DNA from: Chrysochromulina parva
Lineage: Eukaryota; Haptophyta; Prymnesiales; Chrysochromulinaceae
Assembly: GCA_002887195.1 (NCBI GenBank)
Contig: PJAB01002161.1
Coordinates: 1-10,197, forward strand
Length of the DNA stretch: 10,197 nt
Direction of reading: 5' to 3'
Shown: piece by piece, positions 84 to 9,837 of the stretch
Layout of the letters: each line of letters begins with the position of its first letter
How positions within the stretch are numbered: position 1 is the first letter of the stretch
Notes under the pieces: generated by a model
What the model was told of the DNA's origin: nothing
Databases searched by the model: none
Seen by the model: the letters and a program-made list of their open reading frames with translations, nothing else
Made by a program: the position numbers and the translations under genes

Positions 84-582
84 CTTCGGACCCTCCGAAA
101 AAGCTACCCCCACCCTATGCCGTCGAGTTCCGGTTCCGCTCCAGACCCCTTACGTGCTGGACAGACCACGACACCGAGATCACAGTTCGAAATACGTCAT
201 GAAATACGTAGGTACGAAAACGCGGTTCCGGCTCGACCACACCCGCACCGGCAAGACCGCGCGCCGTGTCACAGTCCCAATGACCGTCTCGACTCAGACG
301 CAGCCGGCGGGCATACCGCGCCCAGCCAAGCCCACGCGCCCCCTCTCAACGCGCGGAACACACACCCATCAACATCCACAAACACCTCCCAACAGCGTTT
401 CAGGCATTGCCGGTACCGATTGTTCCCTTATACACGCACTCTGCACGCTCAGCCTTGGGATGGCAGTGCTCCCTCTCGCCGACGGTGCCCTGTGACTGTG
501 CCCCTGACTGTGCCCCTGACTGTGCCCCTGACGTCTCCGTGCACGTCGCGTCTGCTCGCTCATGCGGCCTCGGCGACCAAGC
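84..582. other. Non-coding stretch downstream of the membrane-protein gene
   Basis: Several frames are open here, but their translations are low-complexity (rich in Pro, Arg, Thr and Ser), show no domain or membrane pattern, and overlap one another. I therefore call no gene. The stretch lies on the 3' side of the minus-strand gene and should contain its 3' UTR. I saw no clear AATAAA or TGTAA polyadenylation signal on that strand. It does hold two 9-bp copies of gaaatacgt (189-197 and 201-209, 12 bp apart) and the 12-bp tandem repeat listed separately. Confidence 0.5.
493..532. repeat. 12-bp tandem repeat, 3.3 copies
   Basis: The unit tgactgtgcccc is repeated exactly three times (493-504, 505-516, 517-528) and followed by a partial tgac. 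It is a short minisatellite about 50 bp beyond the stop codon of the minus-strand gene, so it may lie in that gene's 3' UTR. The unit length is a multiple of three, so copy-number change would not shift a reading frame, but no convincing protein covers it. Confidence 0.85.
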
Positions 583-1290
583 TCATGGGTTAATAACAGC
601 AGGCTCGCACGCGCGCGAGCGGTACGATTGCTCGAGGACGCGGGAGCGCTTGGTGACGACGATGGCGGACACGAAGAGCGCAAACTGGAAGAGCGCGAAG
701 AGCATGACGAGCGCCGAGCCCAAATCGGCGACCTTGTGAGCGAAATGGTCGCAGAAGGCCTCCTGCTCCGGGATCTTGACATCGAGCACGTCGAGCTTTC
801 CGAGATGCACTTCGATGTCCTTGCGGTCAAGCATCTCAGTTGCATTCATCTGAGGAGCGTGTGCTGCGACCAGCGTACGCGAGCCCCAGTCGAAGGCGAT
901 GGCGAGGGCACCGGGCATCTTGACGCACCCGTTGTGAATCTCACGATGTCCCATTTTCCGGATGGCGACGGCAACAAAGATGGCCCCGATGGAGGCAAGG
1001 AAGGCGCAGATGGCTGCACAGATGGCAAAGCCCTTGACGTAGCGCGTTTGCACTTTTGCAGACGATGCCAATAAGACGGAGATGGCTGCGATCATGCCGA
1101 ACCATCCTTGAATGTTGTTGAGCGACGTCATGGAGAAGATGAGGAGTACGGTCGCCGCGCGGCGCAGCGAGGTCGCCTTGGTGTCGAGGGCGTCGGTGTC
1201 GGACCGCTCGGTGGTTGCGGGCATGAGCCCTGCTTCCTTCGACATGAACATCGAGGAGCTCGGGGTTTTGGTGCAGCACGACATGTTCAT
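583..1290 (-). CDS. Hypothetical four-transmembrane-helix protein (235 aa)
   Basis: I do not recognise the family. The translation has a polar, Ser/Thr-rich N-terminus (residues 1-43) followed by hydrophobic segments at about 45-60, 62-78, 85-111 and 190-212. Between the third and fourth lies a loop of about 78 residues with Cys122, Cys180 and an N-glycosylation sequon at N149-A-T151. The basic tail (KRSR at 214-217) suggests a cytoplasmic C-terminus, giving both ends inside and a large second loop outside. The layout recalls tetraspan proteins, but I see no tetraspanin CCG motif. Membrane helices appear only in this frame, which is why I prefer it over overlapping plus-strand frames. The chosen ATG is the first after an in-frame stop near 1360; a second in-frame ATG lies two codons later. 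The gene is divergent from the actin-fusion gene. Splicing at either end cannot be excluded. Confidence 0.72.
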   Translation of the reverse strand: MNMSCCTKTPSSSMFMSKEAGLMPATTERSDTDALDTKATSLRRAATVLLIFSMTSLNNIQGWFGMIAAISVLLASSAKVQTRYVKGFAICAAICAFLASIGAIFVAVAIRKMGHREIHNGCVKMPGALAIAFDWGSRTLVAAHAPQMNATEMLDRKDIEVHLGKLDVLDVKIPEQEAFCDHFAHKVADLGSALVMLFALFQFALFVSAIVVTKRSRVLEQSYRSRACEPAVINP

Positions 1291-1540: not shown

Positions 1541-4500
1541 ATGTCGGCATCTCAATGGGAGGACTTCTGGGACGAGCATGAAGCGATCATCGTCGATGTC
1601 GGCAAGAGCTTGTGGAAGGCCGGACCGGCGGGCGGAGATGGACCCAGCGTTGCCATAGACAGCCGAAATCGCGAGGAGACCGATGCGAGCCGGTGGCAGC
1701 GACTCTTCGAGGAGCTCGAGTTGTCGCCCGAGGAGACGCCGGTGCTGCTGAGCGAGGCGCCTGGCACGTCGCGCGCCGATCGTGAGGCGACGCTCCAGCT
1801 ACTCTTTGGGGAGCTACGGGTCCCCGCACTGTACATTGTGGCGCCTTCTCTGCTCACCGCCTACGCCTCGGACATGGTGACTGGCATAGTTGTGGACATC
1901 GGCGAGCGTAGTACAACGGTCTGGTCCGTGTTCGACGGCTATCCGTTGCTGCCTGGGACGACGGTGCTGCCCATGGGCGGTGGGCATTGCACGGACGTGC
2001 TGCTGGGCCGACTGCAGGCGCTCGGCTATACTTCGTCGTCGCCGGCCGAGGCGGAGGTCGTCGCACGCAAGGCCAAAGAAGGGCACGTGCTGGTGCCCGC
2101 CGAAGCGAAGAAGAAGCTGAAGAACGCGGCGGAGGTCGCCCTGCCGGACGGCTCCACTGTCACACTGAGTGGAGACGACCTGACCAAGTGCGGCGAGGTG
2201 CTGCTGCGTGATATTGGCTCTCTTTCACGAGCACCCTCGGCTTCGAAATTGCGCAAGGACACGCTGAGCGGTGCGGCGCTTGAGACGGCGCTTGTGACGG
2301 CGCCAGAGGACCTGGGAGTGGTGCAGGCGATCTTGGGTGTGGTGGCCCTCGCGGACATGAGCATGCGCGGCGCGCTGCTTGCCAACGTGCGGCTCGTGGG
2401 CGGCGGCTCACTCCTAAGCGGGCTCCCGGAGCGCCTCGAGCTCGACCTCTCCAAAGCACTTGGGCCCAAGTCGCCCTTCAAGCCTCGCGTGCACGCGTCG
2501 GGGGCACGGCGCTACGCGCCGTGGATGGGCGGCGCCGTGATGTGCAACCTCTCCGCATGCAAGCGCGCCTTCGTGCTCCGTGAGCAGTACGAGGCCGCCG
2601 GTGCCGAAGCCGTCCATCTGAGGTACGCGCTGCCCGGCGCGGCTTCGCTCGAAGAGCAGCGGCGGCTGTGGCAGGCGGCCGTCGCCGACGAGGCGGCCGC
2701 CAACGCCGAGGTGGCGCTCACGACGGCGCGGCAGATTGGTGAGCTCGCGGGCGCGGCGCGTGCGTGGTGGCTCGAGGCGGCTCCCGCGCACAGTGCCGTG
2801 GAGCGCGAGCGACAGACTCGTCTGCAGCGGGCGCTGGTCGAGCCGCTTGTACGCGCGATGCTGCAGCAGGTGCTCGGCGCGACGCCCTCGCCGCCGGCTC
2901 GCCGCCAGGCTCAGCACGGCGCCTTTGTCTCCGGCGCGCCGCCCTTCCCGCCGTCGGCCGTGCTCGCGGCCGCGGCCGGGGCGCTGCGCCTATCCCTCGG
3001 CACGAGCGCTGCCACCGAGGACGCGTTCGCTCTGCGCCGTCTCACCCAGCTGCGCTCGGCTGCTTGGGCCGTGCAGATGGCGCCCGTCGCAGCGCGTCTT
3101 GACGAGATCGCGAGTCGCTCGGACAGCCACGAGGCGTGCCGCGCATGGCGGCTCTGGGCCACGCTCGCGAGCAAGCAGGGGGTGCGCCGCCGTCGACTTG
3201 CCGACGCTCTCGCACTCCGCGCCTCCGCCATGGTCTTCGGTCACTTTGGCCTATGGGTAGCCAACGCCGCCGTACAGCACAAGGCGAGTGACCAACAGAT
3301 GGTCGCCTTCTACGGCTTCCTGCGCGCGAACCTGCGTGGCTGGCACGCGCGCACTCGTCAGAATCGACGTCTCCTTGTGGCCGTCAAGGCCGCCGCCGCC
3401 GGGTGGCTCGCGATGGACGTGGCGCGTGGCTGGCGAACGTGGCGAACGCGGGCGAGGCTGGTGAGCCACGAGCGACGTGCCGCTGCGTCGGCCGCCGCGG
3501 CACGGCAGCGCGCTGCCTGGCAGGCATGGCTCTCGTTTGCACGCTTGGGAACCAGCGCGGCGGTCGTGGCGCGCGGCGGCGCGCGCCGCGCGCTGAGTTT
3601 GAGCATCTCTTGCTGGATCAGCATGCTTCAAGGGCGACTGGCGGCCGTGCGTCGAGCTCACAAGGCAGGCGAGAGGGCGGCACGCGCAGGTATGGCGAGC
3701 CGGTTTGAGGCGTGGCGGGAGGCTCTCGCGCTCACGAAGCTGCAGGCCGAACTGCTCCGTATGGCGCACCGGGGGCTACTCTCTCGCTGGACACGTGCCT
3801 GGGGACAGGCGGGCAGGGTGCGAGAGGCACGTCGCGACGCATCCCGCCGGCTGCAAGCGCGCTCGATGGCCGACGCCATTCCGGCGCGCCCTCTGCGCCG
3901 CTGCTGGCACTCCTGGCACGGCCGTGCCACCGTCGCGCAGAGGCTTGCGGCCAGGGTCTCCACCGCCTTACTCGCGCGCATGCATCGCTACTGGATCGAG
4001 TGGCGCGTGTGGGCCAGCTCGGTGGAGCGACGGTCGGCGGTGCGGCTGCTCACCACGCTCGCGATCAGTAGCCGCCGCCGGTGGTGTTGGCAGGCATGGC
4101 TGCGTGCGAGCCTGCGCGTGCAGCGCGCGCGCGTGCTCACGGCGCGCTCGCAGCTGCACCACGACCGCTCCGCCGTTCGCCGAGTGCTCCGTGTGCTCGA
4201 GAATCGTCGAGATTCAATCACGCTCGCGCTCCTCGTCACAATGGTAGGACGGCTCTCGGCCCCGCTCATCGCCGATTGGGTCGTAGCCGGGGCGGCCGCT
4301 CGGCATGCCATCGGGCGCGCGCTCAAGCTCGCCAGCGAGTTGGCACGCCGGATGGGCTGGCGCAGGTGGCAGCGAGAGCGCACTCGATCTGCGGAGGGGA
4401 GATTGCTCTTGCACCGAGCACGTCGGCTGTATTCTACCTTGAGCGCTGCCAAGCTTGGACACGGCTTCCAGCAATGGTCGGTCACCGTCCTGAGCACCTC

Positions 4501-4876
4501 GCTCCGCAACGCGGCGCTGGAGCACTGGGCAGAAGAGTTCAAGCCGCGCGCCTTTGCTAACTATGGTTGGCGCCGCTGGCGCGCGGGACTGCACCGTCAG
4601 GCGATGGCGGCGCACATGGCCAGCGTTCTCGAGCGCCGCGCCGACGAGTTTGCCAAAGCCCGATGCGCAGCGGCACTCGCGATGTGGTCGGCGGCCGCCA
4701 CGCGCCGGCTCCACAGGCGAATGCTGAAGACACGCAAGAAGGTGGCGCAGCAGGACGATGCCGCCGTCGAGCGGCTGCGTGGGCTGCTCGCCGACGGGCG
4801 CAAGTGGGCCGAGAGGATGCTCGTCGCGGATGGCGTCCTTCCGGCTGGGAGCCCTTTAGGCTACCCTTTCATTTGA
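1541..4876 (+). CDS. Actin-like domain fused to Sfi1-type centrin-binding repeats (1111 aa)
   Basis: Residues 15-361 align along the whole actin fold. IIVDVGKSLWKAG (16-28) is the phosphate-1 region and VLLSEAP (68-74) matches actin's VLLTEAP. GIVVDIG (115-121) is phosphate-2, LPDG is at 201-204, the adenosine motif VGGGS at 286-290 and RRYAPWMGG at 323-331, followed by an actin-like C-terminal helix. Asp11, Lys18 and Asp154 of actin are kept (D19, K26, D119), but Gln137 and His161 become P102 and T126, and about 37 residues of subdomain 2 are missing. From about 500 to 1060 comes an Arg/Ala/Leu-rich helical array with a Trp every 29-38 residues (509, 539, 572, 601, 634, 663 and on to 1049), often as WxxW. 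This resembles Sfi1 repeats, which bind centrin at spindle poles and basal bodies. The start has A at -3. No intron is evident. The actin call is strong; the Sfi1 call is good but rests on pattern. Confidence 0.88.
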   Translation: MSASQWEDFWDEHEAIIVDVGKSLWKAGPAGGDGPSVAIDSRNREETDASRWQRLFEELELSPEETPVLLSEAPGTSRADREATLQLLFGELRVPALYIVAPSLLTAYASDMVTGIVVDIGERSTTVWSVFDGYPLLPGTTVLPMGGGHCTDVLLGRLQALGYTSSSPAEAEVVARKAKEGHVLVPAEAKKKLKNAAEVALPDGSTVTLSGDDLTKCGEVLLRDIGSLSRAPSASKLRKDTLSGAALETALVTAPEDLGVVQAILGVVALADMSMRGALLANVRLVGGGSLLSGLPERLELDLSKALGPKSPFKPRVHASGARRYAPWMGGAVMCNLSACKRAFVLREQYEAAGAEAVHLRYALPGAASLEEQRRLWQAAVADEAAANAEVALTTARQIGELAGAARAWWLEAAPAHSAVERERQTRLQRALVEPLVRAMLQQVLGATPSPPARRQAQHGAFVSGAPPFPPSAVLAAAAGALRLSLGTSAATEDAFALRRLTQLRSAAWAVQMAPVAARLDEIASRSDSHEACRAWRLWATLASKQGVRRRRLADALALRASAMVFGHFGLWVANAAVQHKASDQQMVAFYGFLRANLRGWHARTRQNRRLLVAVKAAAAGWLAMDVARGWRTWRTRARLVSHERRAAASAAAARQRAAWQAWLSFARLGTSAAVVARGGARRALSLSISCWISMLQGRLAAVRRAHKAGERAARAGMASRFEAWREALALTKLQAELLRMAHRGLLSRWTRAWGQAGRVREARRDASRRLQARSMADAIPARPLRRCWHSWHGRATVAQRLAARVSTALLARMHRYWIEWRVWASSVERRSAVRLLTTLAISSRRRWCWQAWLRASLRVQRARVLTARSQLHHDRSAVRRVLRVLENRRDSITLALLVTMVGRLSAPLIADWVVAGAAARHAIGRALKLASELARRMGWRRWQRERTRSAEGRLLLHRARRLYSTLSAAKLGHGFQQWSVTVLSTSLRNAALEHWAEEFKPRAFANYGWRRWRAGLHRQAMAAHMASVLERRADEFAKARCAAALAMWSAAATRRLHRRMLKTRKKVAQQDDAAVERLRGLLADGRKWAERMLVADGVLPAGSPLGYPFI
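3569..3593. repeat. GC-rich hairpin inside the Sfi1-like repeat region
   Basis: A perfect 10-bp stem (gcgcgcggcg at 3569-3578 and cgccgcgcgc at 3584-3593) surrounds a 5-nt centre. It encodes part of an Arg/Ala/Gly stretch. In GC-rich coding sequence with Ala and Arg codons this may be compositional. Confidence 0.6.
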
Positions 4877-6465: not shown

Positions 6466-9400
6466 ATGGGAATCGTGAATGTGCTCGCTGCCGCCGACAA
6501 CCTTGTTGGTTACGTCCTTTCGAACGAGCTGACTGTGTGCGCTGTGTCCCGAGGCCTCGACGACTCGCCAGTCTCTAGGGTGCTGGCCAACCCGGAGTTG
6601 ATAGGGCAGATAGTTGCTGCCAGTTCAACATCCTCTTGCGCGGCCCCTGTGCTCGTGCTTCAAGGGCCTCGCAGCTGCGGCCTGACGCAGATATTGCAGC
6701 GCTGCGCCGCTCGGCTGCAAGTCCTGGGAGAGTCTTGCCGCGTCATCGCCCTTTTCGACTACGACAGCGTGCCCTCGCTGTTATGGCAGCTGCTCAACGC
6801 CCTTGGCGACACGGACCTCGCCGGGGCGACGACACAGACGCCTGCGCACCACCTCGCCTGTGCCGTTGCTGCCGCACTGGTGCGTGCGGCTGCGCTCAGC
6901 CCGCTGGTCATCCTGATTGACAGCATCGCGGGCGACGGCGAGCCGGTGCAATGGCTCCCGTCGCCCATGCCGCACGGCTGCCGTATCGTACTCGCCACAC
7001 GCTTGGGCAGCGTGACTCATCCGATGATCTCGCGCTACGCGGGTGCGCTCTGCCGTCTGAGCCTCGCCAATCCCACACGCGCCGAGGCACGTGCGCTAAT
7101 CGAGGGCTCCGGGCTCACGAAGGCGCAACTCGACGAGCTCATGAGCGACGAGTTTTGGGGGCCGGATGCGCGGGCAGAGTACGTTCGGCGTTTTCTCTTG
7201 GGCATGGCCATGACCATGGGCGTTGACCCTGACGGTTGGAAATTAGGCACGCACGCAGAGGTAGCCGAGAAGGCGGCGGCAGTTTTGTGCGTGGGCGAGA
7301 CGGCTGGCATGTCGACGGATGCCCTCATAGACCGCTGCATCGACATGATGAGTGTGCCCTACGACCGCGCCTTCTCTGTTGCGTGGCTGCACCTGGCCCG
7401 AGATGAGCTACTCGCCACTGGTAGCCTATACGAGCCTCGCGAGCTGCATGCTTTGTGCGAGCGGGCGATTACGCGCGCCGTCGCGTCCGATGAAGAAAAG
7501 GTGAGCATTCGCGTCCAAACGACATCCAGTGCCGACGCTCCTCAAGGCGCACTCTCGCTGAAGGATGTTCACCGGCCCGAGGGCACGTGCAGCCGCATTG
7601 AGCTGAGCGCGCTAGTCGGCGCGCGCGCGCCGAGGCAGATGATGCTGTGGCTGCTCACCGTCAGACCCCGTGGATGGAGCGAGGCGAAGCTTCTACGCGT
7701 GGCTGGCGCGGACGTCGCTCACCTCGAAGATTTGCGTCCTCTGCTCGACCCAACGGCGGCGGCTGTGGGTAGCGTGGCGCTACGGAGCGTGGTTGCAGAC
7801 GGGGTGCGCCGGTGCTGGCTGTGCTCGAGCGAGCGGTGGCTTGAAGATGGTGCCCAAAGAACATTGGAGATTCTGGCTGCCGAGCAGGCCGAACAAGTTG
7901 CACGCGAATGTTACGCGGCAGACGCGGAGACTCGACGTCAATGCATTGAACGCCGCGTCGACGCCGCGCCGTGCTTCATTATTGAACGCGCTCTGCTCGA
8001 GGCGGCGGTGCATGCAACCTTGGGCGCGCGCTTGCCCGATGAGCCCCAAGATGACGAGCTCGCACGCGCGGTCTGGCATCAGTGGCAGGTGCATCGGCTC
8101 ATACAGATGGTCCAAAAGGTGGGAACGGTGCTTGGTCCTTGGCGGGTGGGGTATGGGACGTGGTGCATGATGCAGGGCCCCGTGTTCAAGGATTGTGAGA
8201 CGGAGTGCGCGCGGCTCAAGTCAGTCGTGCGGGTGTCGCTGCTCAGTCCCGCCGTACTGCGTACCCTCCTCCGCCCCGCAAGCACACGGCAACTGCGCCT
8301 CATGGTCCTTGCGCTCGGGGACCGCCCCGTCGACGCCAGCTGGCTCGCCACGGCCGTCGACCAGAAGGTCGATCCGTTACCTGTGGCAGAGCTCGAGGCA
8401 GCGAAAGCCGAGGCGGCAGCACGGCTCGCTGCGGAGCAGGTCGAGCAACGTGCCTTCCTCGAGGCGCGTTTGGTGGAGATGGAGGCGATCCAAGCCGAAT
8501 CGACGGCCAGTTTCCAGGCGGCCAGGGAGAAAATGGAGGCGCTGGCCATCGAACTGCAGGCGGAGAAAGGAGCCGAGGTGGCGGTGGCGGCCAAGGCGGC
8601 CATCCTTGAGCACATCAATGCTAAGGAGGCGGATGTGGAGGCGAGGGTTGCTGCCTCCAATGGTCAGCTGGCGGCGACTTGGGTGTTGATGCAGCTGACC
8701 GCGGAGGAAGGTACCGGCGCTGACCGACTCGTCAGTCGTGCGAGCGCGAGCGCGTCGTCACCGCCAGGCACCGCGTACGGGCAGTGGCCAAACGACTCCG
8801 CGCACTGGCAGCTGAGCGCGCAGCTCGGTGCATTCTGCTCTGAGCTCGGGTTGTTCTCCGAGGCGCGCACGCTCCTTCTCGAGGCGCGAACGGCGCTCGG
8901 CGCGTGCGCGTGCGCCGGCGGCGCCTCGGACGAAATTATGGGTGGCTTGCTGCTCGACCTCGCCCAAAATGAGGTTCGGCACTGGGACTCGCTGCGCCGC
9001 TGGGAGGCGCACGAGCTGACGTTGCTGCTCGAGTCCTCAGCCGAGGCCGTCGCGCGGCTGCGCCGTACGCCTGATGGGGCGGTCCGATCAGTAAGGCTCG
9101 CCTCGGCCCTCTCGCGCCGCGCCAACGGCTGCTTCAAAATTGCATGCGTGGTCGACGCGCCCGCGCGTGAACAATGGCTTGCCGAGAGCGATCAAGCGAC
9201 GGCGGAAGCGCGCCGTCTTCTCGAGCCTTACGGTGACTCGTACTCGCTTGGCTCGAGCTGCCTCGTGCGCGCGGTGACGCAACTCGTTCGCCTCTCACGC
9301 GGGATCGAAGACGAGCTTGCCCCCCCCACCGAGGCACTGGCACTCGAGCGCCACGGCGCCTTCGAGGCCCTCATCGAGCAGTTGGAGGAGGCTGGCCACA

Positions 9401-9837
9401 TTTTGCGCAGATCGGTTGGAGTGGTCTGTGAGCCGATGATGTTTGTGCATGCGAATCTGAGCGAAGTCCATCTGATGGTTTGGCGGACTTCGCTCAGATT
9501 GGCCGGGCCCGCGGGTCTCGATCGCACGCACGCGATCGCGCACCACATGCGCTCGATCGAGCACCTGGGTGCTGCATGCGAGGTCGCCATCGCCCACTTT
9601 GGCACCGCCGATCACCCGAACGTGCGCATGAAACTCGGGGAGTACCAACGGCTTTTGAGCGCGACCCTCGGGCCTGGGATCCTCGGAGGGCCTCTGTCCG
9701 CACTTGCTCAGTGCCGCTCGCGCCTCGACATCCGCCGGATCCGCGAGAGCATCCACCATCTCTTCGCAAACCGTCTTCTTGAGGGTTCCTTAAACGTCGG
9801 AGGGTTTCGGATGATCGATCTCGGCGATCTCGCATAG
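6466..9837 (+). CDS. NACHT/nephrocystin-3-like STAND NTPase with coiled coil and TPR-like C-terminus (1123 aa)
   Basis: STAND NTPases are switch proteins in signalling, immunity and, for nephrocystin-3, cilia. The order here is as follows. A P-loop region (VLVLQGPRSCGLT, 62-74) has the Walker A Lys replaced by Leu. Walker B is LVILID (147-152) with Asp152, and WLPSPMPHGCRIVLATR (163-179) fits the post-Walker-B strand of NACHT proteins. A helical region (about 195-340) follows, then a winged-helix-like segment around 385-450 (GWSEAKLLRVAG, 403-414). A coiled coil spans 636-735, rich in Glu, Ala and Lys. The C-terminus has TPR-like helix pairs (for example LSAQLGAFCSELGLFSEART, 783-802, and a segment ending AHFGTADHPNV at 1043-1053). 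The start is the first ATG after an in-frame stop, with G at -3 and +4. No intron is evident over 3.37 kb. The STAND assignment is by pattern; the target is unknown. Confidence 0.78.
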   Translation: MGIVNVLAAADNLVGYVLSNELTVCAVSRGLDDSPVSRVLANPELIGQIVAASSTSSCAAPVLVLQGPRSCGLTQILQRCAARLQVLGESCRVIALFDYDSVPSLLWQLLNALGDTDLAGATTQTPAHHLACAVAAALVRAAALSPLVILIDSIAGDGEPVQWLPSPMPHGCRIVLATRLGSVTHPMISRYAGALCRLSLANPTRAEARALIEGSGLTKAQLDELMSDEFWGPDARAEYVRRFLLGMAMTMGVDPDGWKLGTHAEVAEKAAAVLCVGETAGMSTDALIDRCIDMMSVPYDRAFSVAWLHLARDELLATGSLYEPRELHALCERAITRAVASDEEKVSIRVQTTSSADAPQGALSLKDVHRPEGTCSRIELSALVGARAPRQMMLWLLTVRPRGWSEAKLLRVAGADVAHLEDLRPLLDPTAAAVGSVALRSVVADGVRRCWLCSSERWLEDGAQRTLEILAAEQAEQVARECYAADAETRRQCIERRVDAAPCFIIERALLEAAVHATLGARLPDEPQDDELARAVWHQWQVHRLIQMVQKVGTVLGPWRVGYGTWCMMQGPVFKDCETECARLKSVVRVSLLSPAVLRTLLRPASTRQLRLMVLALGDRPVDASWLATAVDQKVDPLPVAELEAAKAEAAARLAAEQVEQRAFLEARLVEMEAIQAESTASFQAAREKMEALAIELQAEKGAEVAVAAKAAILEHINAKEADVEARVAASNGQLAATWVLMQLTAEEGTGADRLVSRASASASSPPGTAYGQWPNDSAHWQLSAQLGAFCSELGLFSEARTLLLEARTALGACACAGGASDEIMGGLLLDLAQNEVRHWDSLRRWEAHELTLLLESSAEAVARLRRTPDGAVRSVRLASALSRRANGCFKIACVVDAPAREQWLAESDQATAEARRLLEPYGDSYSLGSSCLVRAVTQLVRLSRGIEDELAPPTEALALERHGAFEALIEQLEEAGHILRRSVGVVCEPMMFVHANLSEVHLMVWRTSLRLAGPAGLDRTHAIAHHMRSIEHLGAACEVAIAHFGTADHPNVRMKLGEYQRLLSATLGPGILGGPLSALAQCRSRLDIRRIRESIHHLFANRLLEGSLNVGGFRMIDLGDLA
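9320..9327 (+). repeat. Run of eight C inside the NACHT-like gene
   Basis: Eight consecutive C bases fall in codons for Ala-Pro-Pro around residues 952-954. Homopolymers of this length are prone to polymerase slippage and sequencing error. Protein-like sequence continues in the same frame on both sides, so the frame as given looks correct. Confidence 0.8.
9454..9500. repeat. Perfect 16-bp inverted repeat inside the NACHT-like gene
   Basis: aatctgagcgaagtcc (9454-9469) is the exact reverse complement of ggacttcgctcagatt (9485-9500), with a 15-nt loop between them. It encodes residues 997-1012. A 16-bp perfect stem this close together is unlikely by chance in about 10 kb. In the mRNA it would form a stable hairpin near the 3' end of the coding region. 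Confidence 0.9.

Follow-up and report, generated by a model that had tools for sequence, protein, structure and literature searches.

A gene family of Chrysochromulina parva that joins a trimmed actin fold to an Sfi1-like tryptophan array

Introduction

Does a gene on one short contig of the haptophyte Chrysochromulina parva encode an actin-like protein fused to a centrin-type scaffold, and if so, what might such a protein do? The stretch of DNA under analysis, referred to here as the window, is 10,197 nucleotides long and is the entire contig C2161 of a genome of 45.07 Mb in 2199 contigs. A preliminary description of the window had claimed one uninterrupted 1111-residue frame that carries a full-length actin-type fold followed by about 18 Trp-centred repeats resembling those of Sfi1. 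The features of the gene are as follows.

1541..4876, plus strand: whole gene, a single open frame of 1111 aa comprising an actin-fold head, a neck, a Trp array and a C-terminal module
1562..2632, plus strand: actin-fold head, residues 8-364
1658..1696, plus strand: residues 40-52, the junction at which alignments show actin subdomain 2 and the D-loop (actin about 32-85) to be missing
1895..1918, plus strand: second phosphate loop DIGERSTT, residues 119-126, aligned to actin D154-H161
2399..2422, plus strand: adenosine-site loop GGGSLLSG, residues 287-294, aligned to actin GGTTMFPG
2636..2980, plus strand: neck, residues 366-480
2756..2785, plus strand: family motif ARAWWLEAAP, residues 406-415, within the neck, from family alignments
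3038..4735, plus strand: Sfi1-like array, residues 500-1065, with 18 key Trp, from Trp spacing and from the hydrophobics three and seven residues before isolated Trp
4751..4840, plus strand: C-terminal module VERLRGLLADGRKWAERMLV, from family comparison

Results

The reading frame and its family

The uninterrupted frame is borne out by a public counterpart, P0001, which is of the same length, is 99% identical and belongs to a cluster with 52 members. When codon usage was compared with that of nine other open frames from the same genome, frame 0 was the best-fitting forward frame for both head and tail; the reverse frames were nearly as good in the tail, and codon usage in the neck was ambiguous. 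This ambiguity, the small size of the contig (just 10,197 bases) and the existence of two gene models that lack the head (P0002 and P0003) would be consistent with an artefact in which a misassembly or frame accident fused two genes, and the preliminary description had named a misassembly around 2620-2800 as a finding that would undo it. However, the same layout is repeated in three further genes of the same genome and in other proteins, including P0001 with its equal length, which, as far as sequence can tell, rules out an artefact of this kind and leaves it a negligible probability.

The three further genes are C1303 (locus L009), which encodes 1283 aa in the same layout; C299 (L016:2672-6793, plus strand), which encodes 1373 aa in the same layout; and C16 (L010), in which that layout extends over two frames, one of 796 aa and a second that bears the conserved end. 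The deduced products show that a trimmed actin fold, a conserved neck and an array of about 18 putative Sfi1-type sites are combined in no fewer than four genes of this genome. Among public proteins, the same layout is present in P0001, P0004 (35%), P0005 (36%) and, in part, P0006, a protein of 558 aa with a head, a neck and the start of a tail. P0002 and P0003 match at about 90% over the neck and tail. The preliminary description had suggested looking for other proteins with both domains, and these genes and proteins are what such a search returned; its central claim, an actin-family domain fused to an Sfi1-type array, is supported for a gene family and not for a single odd gene. A search with a full-length alignment yielded seven proteins, among them P0007, which is actin-like and has no tail, and P0008-P0010 are further entries among the matches listed. 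Since the protein database searches scored the approximately 8000 candidates that shared most words, further relatives may exist. In genome searches with two of the tails, each found itself alone.

The C299 gene has a PDZ-like insert between its head and neck (E 0.018, below the cut-off). Short intron-like inserts that share TGCTCACCAYGGCGCC and a CACAG end lie in L010 (about 3400-3700, minus strand) and L025 (about 130-200, plus strand), and one insert of this type occurs in tandem copies. The AHHGA reading of these inserts recurs at the head-neck border of P0002 and P0003. The inserts look like introner-type introns, and such an insert could account for the change of frame within C16.

To either side of the gene, a 1123-aa open frame at 6466-9837 of the window (plus strand) has no Pfam match at E 10 and, read by eye, contains the nucleotide-loop-like stretch GPRSCGLTQ in its N-terminal part, and a 235-aa frame at 583-1290 (minus strand) has sub-threshold Pfam matches to DUF973 (E 0.027) and a CD20-like domain (E 0.21). 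An Rfam search of the window and three loci gave no match, and neither did a bacterial-type promoter scan of positions 1-600, a type of scan that is not meaningful for this DNA.

Place of the heads among actin-family proteins

In an unrooted tree of 13 rows, which holds no named actin-related proteins from elsewhere, a branch with support of 100/99 separates the seven heads from the six remaining actin-family rows. A 441-aa actin-related frame of this genome (L011:4194-5519, plus strand) lacks both subdomain 2 and a tail and lies outside the family in the tree. Another frame, of 573 aa (L018:3819-5540, minus strand), has an F-box-like match (E 8e-9) and an Actin match (E 8e-34), is apparently without subdomain 2, and is presumably an F-box actin-related protein of the plant ARP8 type.

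Chromatin remodellers have long helices to which actin-related proteins bind, a precedent for reading the family as nuclear actin-related proteins whose heads act in chromatin and whose tails are unrelated helical extensions. We consider this very improbable, given that the 13-row tree separates the heads from the remaining actin-family rows of the genome and that the array and its centrin pattern would be left without a role.

An actin fold without subdomain 2

Pfam Actin (PF00022) matches the head at 164.1 bits against a cut-off of 27. A structure prediction of the N-terminal part, which the preliminary description had proposed as a check, produced a model in which the actin fold is present. 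Contrary to what had been supposed, the fold is not full-length. In alignment to actin, about 12 residues of the window head take the place of about 54 in the subdomain 2 region, and P102, R123 and T126 stand at the positions of actin Q137, G158 and H161, which we take to be catalytic and gamma-phosphate residues. The loop DIGERSTT keeps its D and G, and its R and T stand for actin G158 and H161. The role of GGGSLLSG at the adenosine site is one that we assume from knowledge of actin.

Subdomain 2 was recognisable in none of the seven heads aligned; P0005, which has a Pro-rich stretch at that place, seems from its alignment to keep Q at the actin Q137 position. Much of the subdomain 4 region is also gone from the aligned heads of C1303, C16, C299 and P0004. 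Residues D19, G21, D119, G121 and G287-G288 are invariant in a six-row alignment. A conventional actin is ruled out by the missing subdomain 2 and D-loop and by the changes at the Q137, G158 and H161 positions. Since subdomain 2 is absent and these three positions are altered, it appears unlikely that the head would polymerise as actin does. An actin fold without its polymerising parts has yet diversified into four genes of one genome.

Such a fold might be a dead knob on a basal-body or centrosomal Sfi1-type scaffold, one that has no actin-related partner and serves assembly or self-association. The changed catalytic positions and the lost subdomain 2 are in keeping with this, the subdomain 4 losses in C1303, C16, C299 and P0004 look like decaying filament surfaces, and the sub-threshold PDZ-like insert of C299 (E 0.018) suggests that the front end may be a general docking site. 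On the other hand, the head is still recognisably actin at 164 bits, and the invariance of D19, G21, D119, G121 and G287-G288 would go beyond the needs of a passive knob. We therefore regard a dead knob as possible but somewhat doubtful.

The neck and the C-terminal module

ARxWW is present in the necks of five of seven members, the exceptions being P0006 and C16, and is followed in the family comparison by E-Q-A-P or a variant. A406, R407 and W410 are invariant in a six-row alignment without P0006, which differs at R407. In the C-terminal module, the window and P0004 share the motif GRKWA, in place of which C16 has GQKWA and C299 has GHAWA; the C terminus of C1303 offers only a loose match to a motif of this type.

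Tryptophan spacing and flanking hydrophobics in the tail

We relied upon the spacing of Trp residues because pairwise Trp conservation is biased by the scoring matrix. Trp pairs in the window tail are in excess at lag 29 (9 vs 1.4 expected, z 6.7), lag 32 (6 vs 1.4, z 4.1) and lag 3 (9 vs 1.45, z 6.8). The lag peaks in the single tails of other members are weaker, with best z values of 2.4 to 3.0; when six tails are pooled, lags 3, 29, 30, 33 and 36 stand out with z values of 6.5, 3.4, 3.0, 3.5 and 3.1, respectively. The Trp spacing 27-3-33-29 is exactly common to the window and P0005 at 31% identity.

Residues flanking Trp were counted in seven tail pieces from six proteins, the C16 gene supplying two pieces; the near-copies of the window (P0001-P0003) and the short tail of P0006 were excluded, only isolated Trp were counted, and Trp itself did not count as hydrophobic. 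Hydrophobic residues are in excess at -3 (55/93, z 7.7) and -7 (34/83, z 3.4) of Trp, and there is no excess at +3 (22/93) or +7 (25/86). In the window tail alone, the corresponding counts are 8/10 at -3 (z 3.8) and 7/10 at -7 (z 3.2). In the centrin triad L8xxxL4xxW1 these two places are numbered 4 and 8, and the -7/-3/0 pattern forms the backbone of AX7LLX3F/LX2W, the Sfi1 consensus, according to the passages of PMC8622359 drawn on here. The pieces contain 33 8-4-1 motifs, compared with 12.3 ± 3.2 in shuffled sequences, and the motif in reverse order (1-4-8) shows a mild excess as well (19 vs 12.6 ± 3.4). The preliminary claim of about 18 Trp-centred repeats resembling Sfi1 thus agrees with 18 key Trp, lags of 29 and 32, and hydrophobics that precede Trp by three and seven residues, as they do in Sfi1.

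The strict consensus A-x7-LL-x3-F/L-x2-W is not enriched in the seven pieces (1 vs 0.56 expected, with hydrophobics widened to LIVMFWY), nor is Ala at -16 of Trp in the tails (z 1.0). The minimal centrin motif [FLW]xxW[KR] has only four occurrences in the window, where 1.1 would be expected and the largest count in a shuffle is five, and none in the first C16 piece. Its top counts among 356 frames belong to this gene, C299, C1303 and a separate Sfi1-like gene; these frames, each at least 150 aa long, lie in loci chosen for other purposes and are a non-random set in which some loci overlap and some frames appear twice. A structure prediction of the tail alone is nearly all helix, but with a pLDDT of 41.

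Comparison with Sfi1 profiles and with an Sfi1-like protein of the same genome

Pfam Sfi1 (PF08457) has no match in the window. Filing the protein under this family was consequently dropped, and Sfi1 was kept as something that the tail may work like. The sole PF08457 match listed genome-wide at E up to 1 is sub-threshold (14.2 bits vs 22) and lies in another gene, L036. A profile of the tail repeats gave no PDB match at E 10, and the tail itself gave two weak, unrelated PDB matches, Sfi1 not being among them.

The L036 gene (L036:1-2226, minus strand, contig C678) has a frame that runs for 742 aa to where the contig stops and encodes an Sfi1-like protein that has no actin head; an hmmscan of its 699-aa piece did not list Sfi1. 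Its Trp period is at lag 33 (z 10), and hydrophobics stand at -3 of Trp in 12 of 14 cases and at -7 in 10 of 13. A position matrix built from the 20 repeats of L036, with Trp ignored, scores the seven tail pieces, pooled, at z 6.8, with none of 500 shuffles as high, and scores eight control proteins at z -1.3. Piece by piece, the values run from z 1.5 for C16a (39/500) to 4.1 for P0004, with 2.0 (7/500) for the window. The reverse test, in which a matrix from the tails was scored on L036, gave z 4.7 (0/500) and -0.2 for the eight control proteins; these controls were hand-picked, and one of them, L009b, alone scores z 1.9. Direct comparison of the tails with L036 found no match (hhalign probability 4.0 and 0.9; BLASTP E 0.89), so the likeness is one of shared pattern and does not demonstrate common descent.

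The tail could instead be a Trp- and Arg-rich helical rod that binds no centrin and packs upon itself, upon another EF-hand protein such as calmodulin, or upon the microtubule lattice. That is what one might expect of tails that have no sequence-level match to solved Sfi1, show no enrichment of the strict Sfi1 consensus and change so quickly that a genome search with either of two tails returned that tail alone. Weighing against a rod of this kind are the directional -7/-3/0 pattern, a spacing of about 29-33 that is close to Sfi1 as described in the passages drawn on here, and the occurrence of the same pattern in the actin-free Sfi1-like protein L036. We judge a rod without centrin to be unlikely.

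Centrins and light-harvesting proteins of the host genome

Ten EF-hand loci were opened from 150 scored matches, and centrins were found among them. L024 is a centrin whose best PDB match is 3qrx (E 1e-57), and four loci (L027, L028, L029 and L030) carry near-identical copies, judged by eye, of a second centrin type, the copies being alleles or recent duplicates.

The genome has 58 matches to light-harvesting proteins, indicating a photosynthetic alga, and four of these were examined. L021 (minus strand) has its best PDB matches in chains from E. huxleyi (9jj8, 9uen) and I. galbana (8z11), with E values of 2e-71 and 1e-67, followed by 9uh3_G at 1e-59 and the next at 7e-47; the E. huxleyi and I. 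galbana assignments are as given in the passages of PMC13219633 and PMC12716418 drawn on here. The other three loci are less clear than L021. At cut-offs of 1e-20 for L020 and 1e-25 for L022, the best matches of both are 9vfj polyproteins, and at a cut-off of 1e-35 a 9vfj chain is the sole match of L023; the scores of these matches are summed over repeated domains. The next best matches of L020 are 9uen and 9jj8, both from E. huxleyi. The light-harvesting matches by themselves make a haptophyte host probable.

Discussion

The reading that we favour, and which we think fairly probable, is that the protein is a cytoskeletal scaffold composed of a trimmed actin head and an Sfi1-type centrin tail, with the head as an anchor by which a centrin fibre is fastened to an actin-type structure. 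Each site of the array would hold one centrin, and with all sites occupied the tail would become a centrin-coated, calcium-responsive rod. The head, lacking the D-loop and carrying altered catalytic residues, would build no filaments and would instead be a fixed cap or anchor whose partner, an actin, an actin-related protein or a second rod, would be bound through the subdomain 1/3 face that is left. In this way the protein could tie a centrin fibre by one end to an actin-type structure, located in the basal apparatus or possibly the haptonema of a haptophyte. The preliminary description had raised a physical connection of actin-type with centrin-type cytoskeleton, and such a connection is possible.

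A further suggestion, which we put forward as improbable, is that the actin-headed centrin rods are a family of the haptophyte lineage and function as components of the haptonema, or of its base. Calcium would cause the tail-bound centrin to change shape, and the actin-fold heads would fix the rods to a partner structure. In the passages of PMC6398456 drawn on here, haptophyte centrin is placed at the tip of the haptonema microtubules, and coiling of the haptonema is called motor-independent, its mechanism unknown. If true, the suggestion would supply a molecular candidate for motor-independent coiling.

An anchored centrin scaffold, if correct, would be a built-in connector of actin-type and centrin-type systems in algae whose group is noted for a calcium-triggered organelle, and the family offers testable genes for work on the haptophyte cytoskeleton. 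Both modules are known; the new element is their combination, kept and multiplied in evolution, of which we could find no report in an open-access literature search covering titles and the starts of abstracts.

Among known systems, Sfi1, the centrosomal centrin scaffold of yeast and human (PF08457), is matched by Trp-centred sites mostly 29-33 apart, by likewise oriented hydrophobics at -3 and -7 and by the presence of centrins in the same genome. Unlike Sfi1, the window protein has an actin-fold head, a WW neck and a C-terminal module of its own, and it lacks a Pfam Sfi1 match and an enriched A-x7-LL consensus. With actin and the actin-related proteins (PF00022) it shares the fold, the profile and the glycines and aspartates of the nucleotide loops, whereas it differs in the absence of subdomain 2 and the D-loop, in the altered Q137, G158 and H161 positions and in a C-terminal extension of about 750 residues. 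The F-box actin-related protein L018 likewise has an actin fold fused to another domain, seemingly without subdomain 2, but in the tree its long branch lies apart from the actin-Sfi1 group, its F-box is N-terminal and its frame ends soon after the actin fold.

PfSlp of Plasmodium was named Sfi1-like for its centrin motifs without sequence homology, and its interaction with centrin has been shown (PMC10180636). It resembles the window protein in being Sfi1-like by accumulated centrin motifs and differs in that no actin head is mentioned in the passages of that report drawn on here. The scaffolds of ciliate myonemes and spasmonemes, as the passages cited from PMC12661445 describe them, are giant, have hundreds of sites and come with no mention of an actin head; like the tail proposed here, these Sfi1-type scaffolds carry arrayed centrin-type proteins, centrins or spasmins, and in the contractile myonemes the arrays serve calcium-driven contraction.
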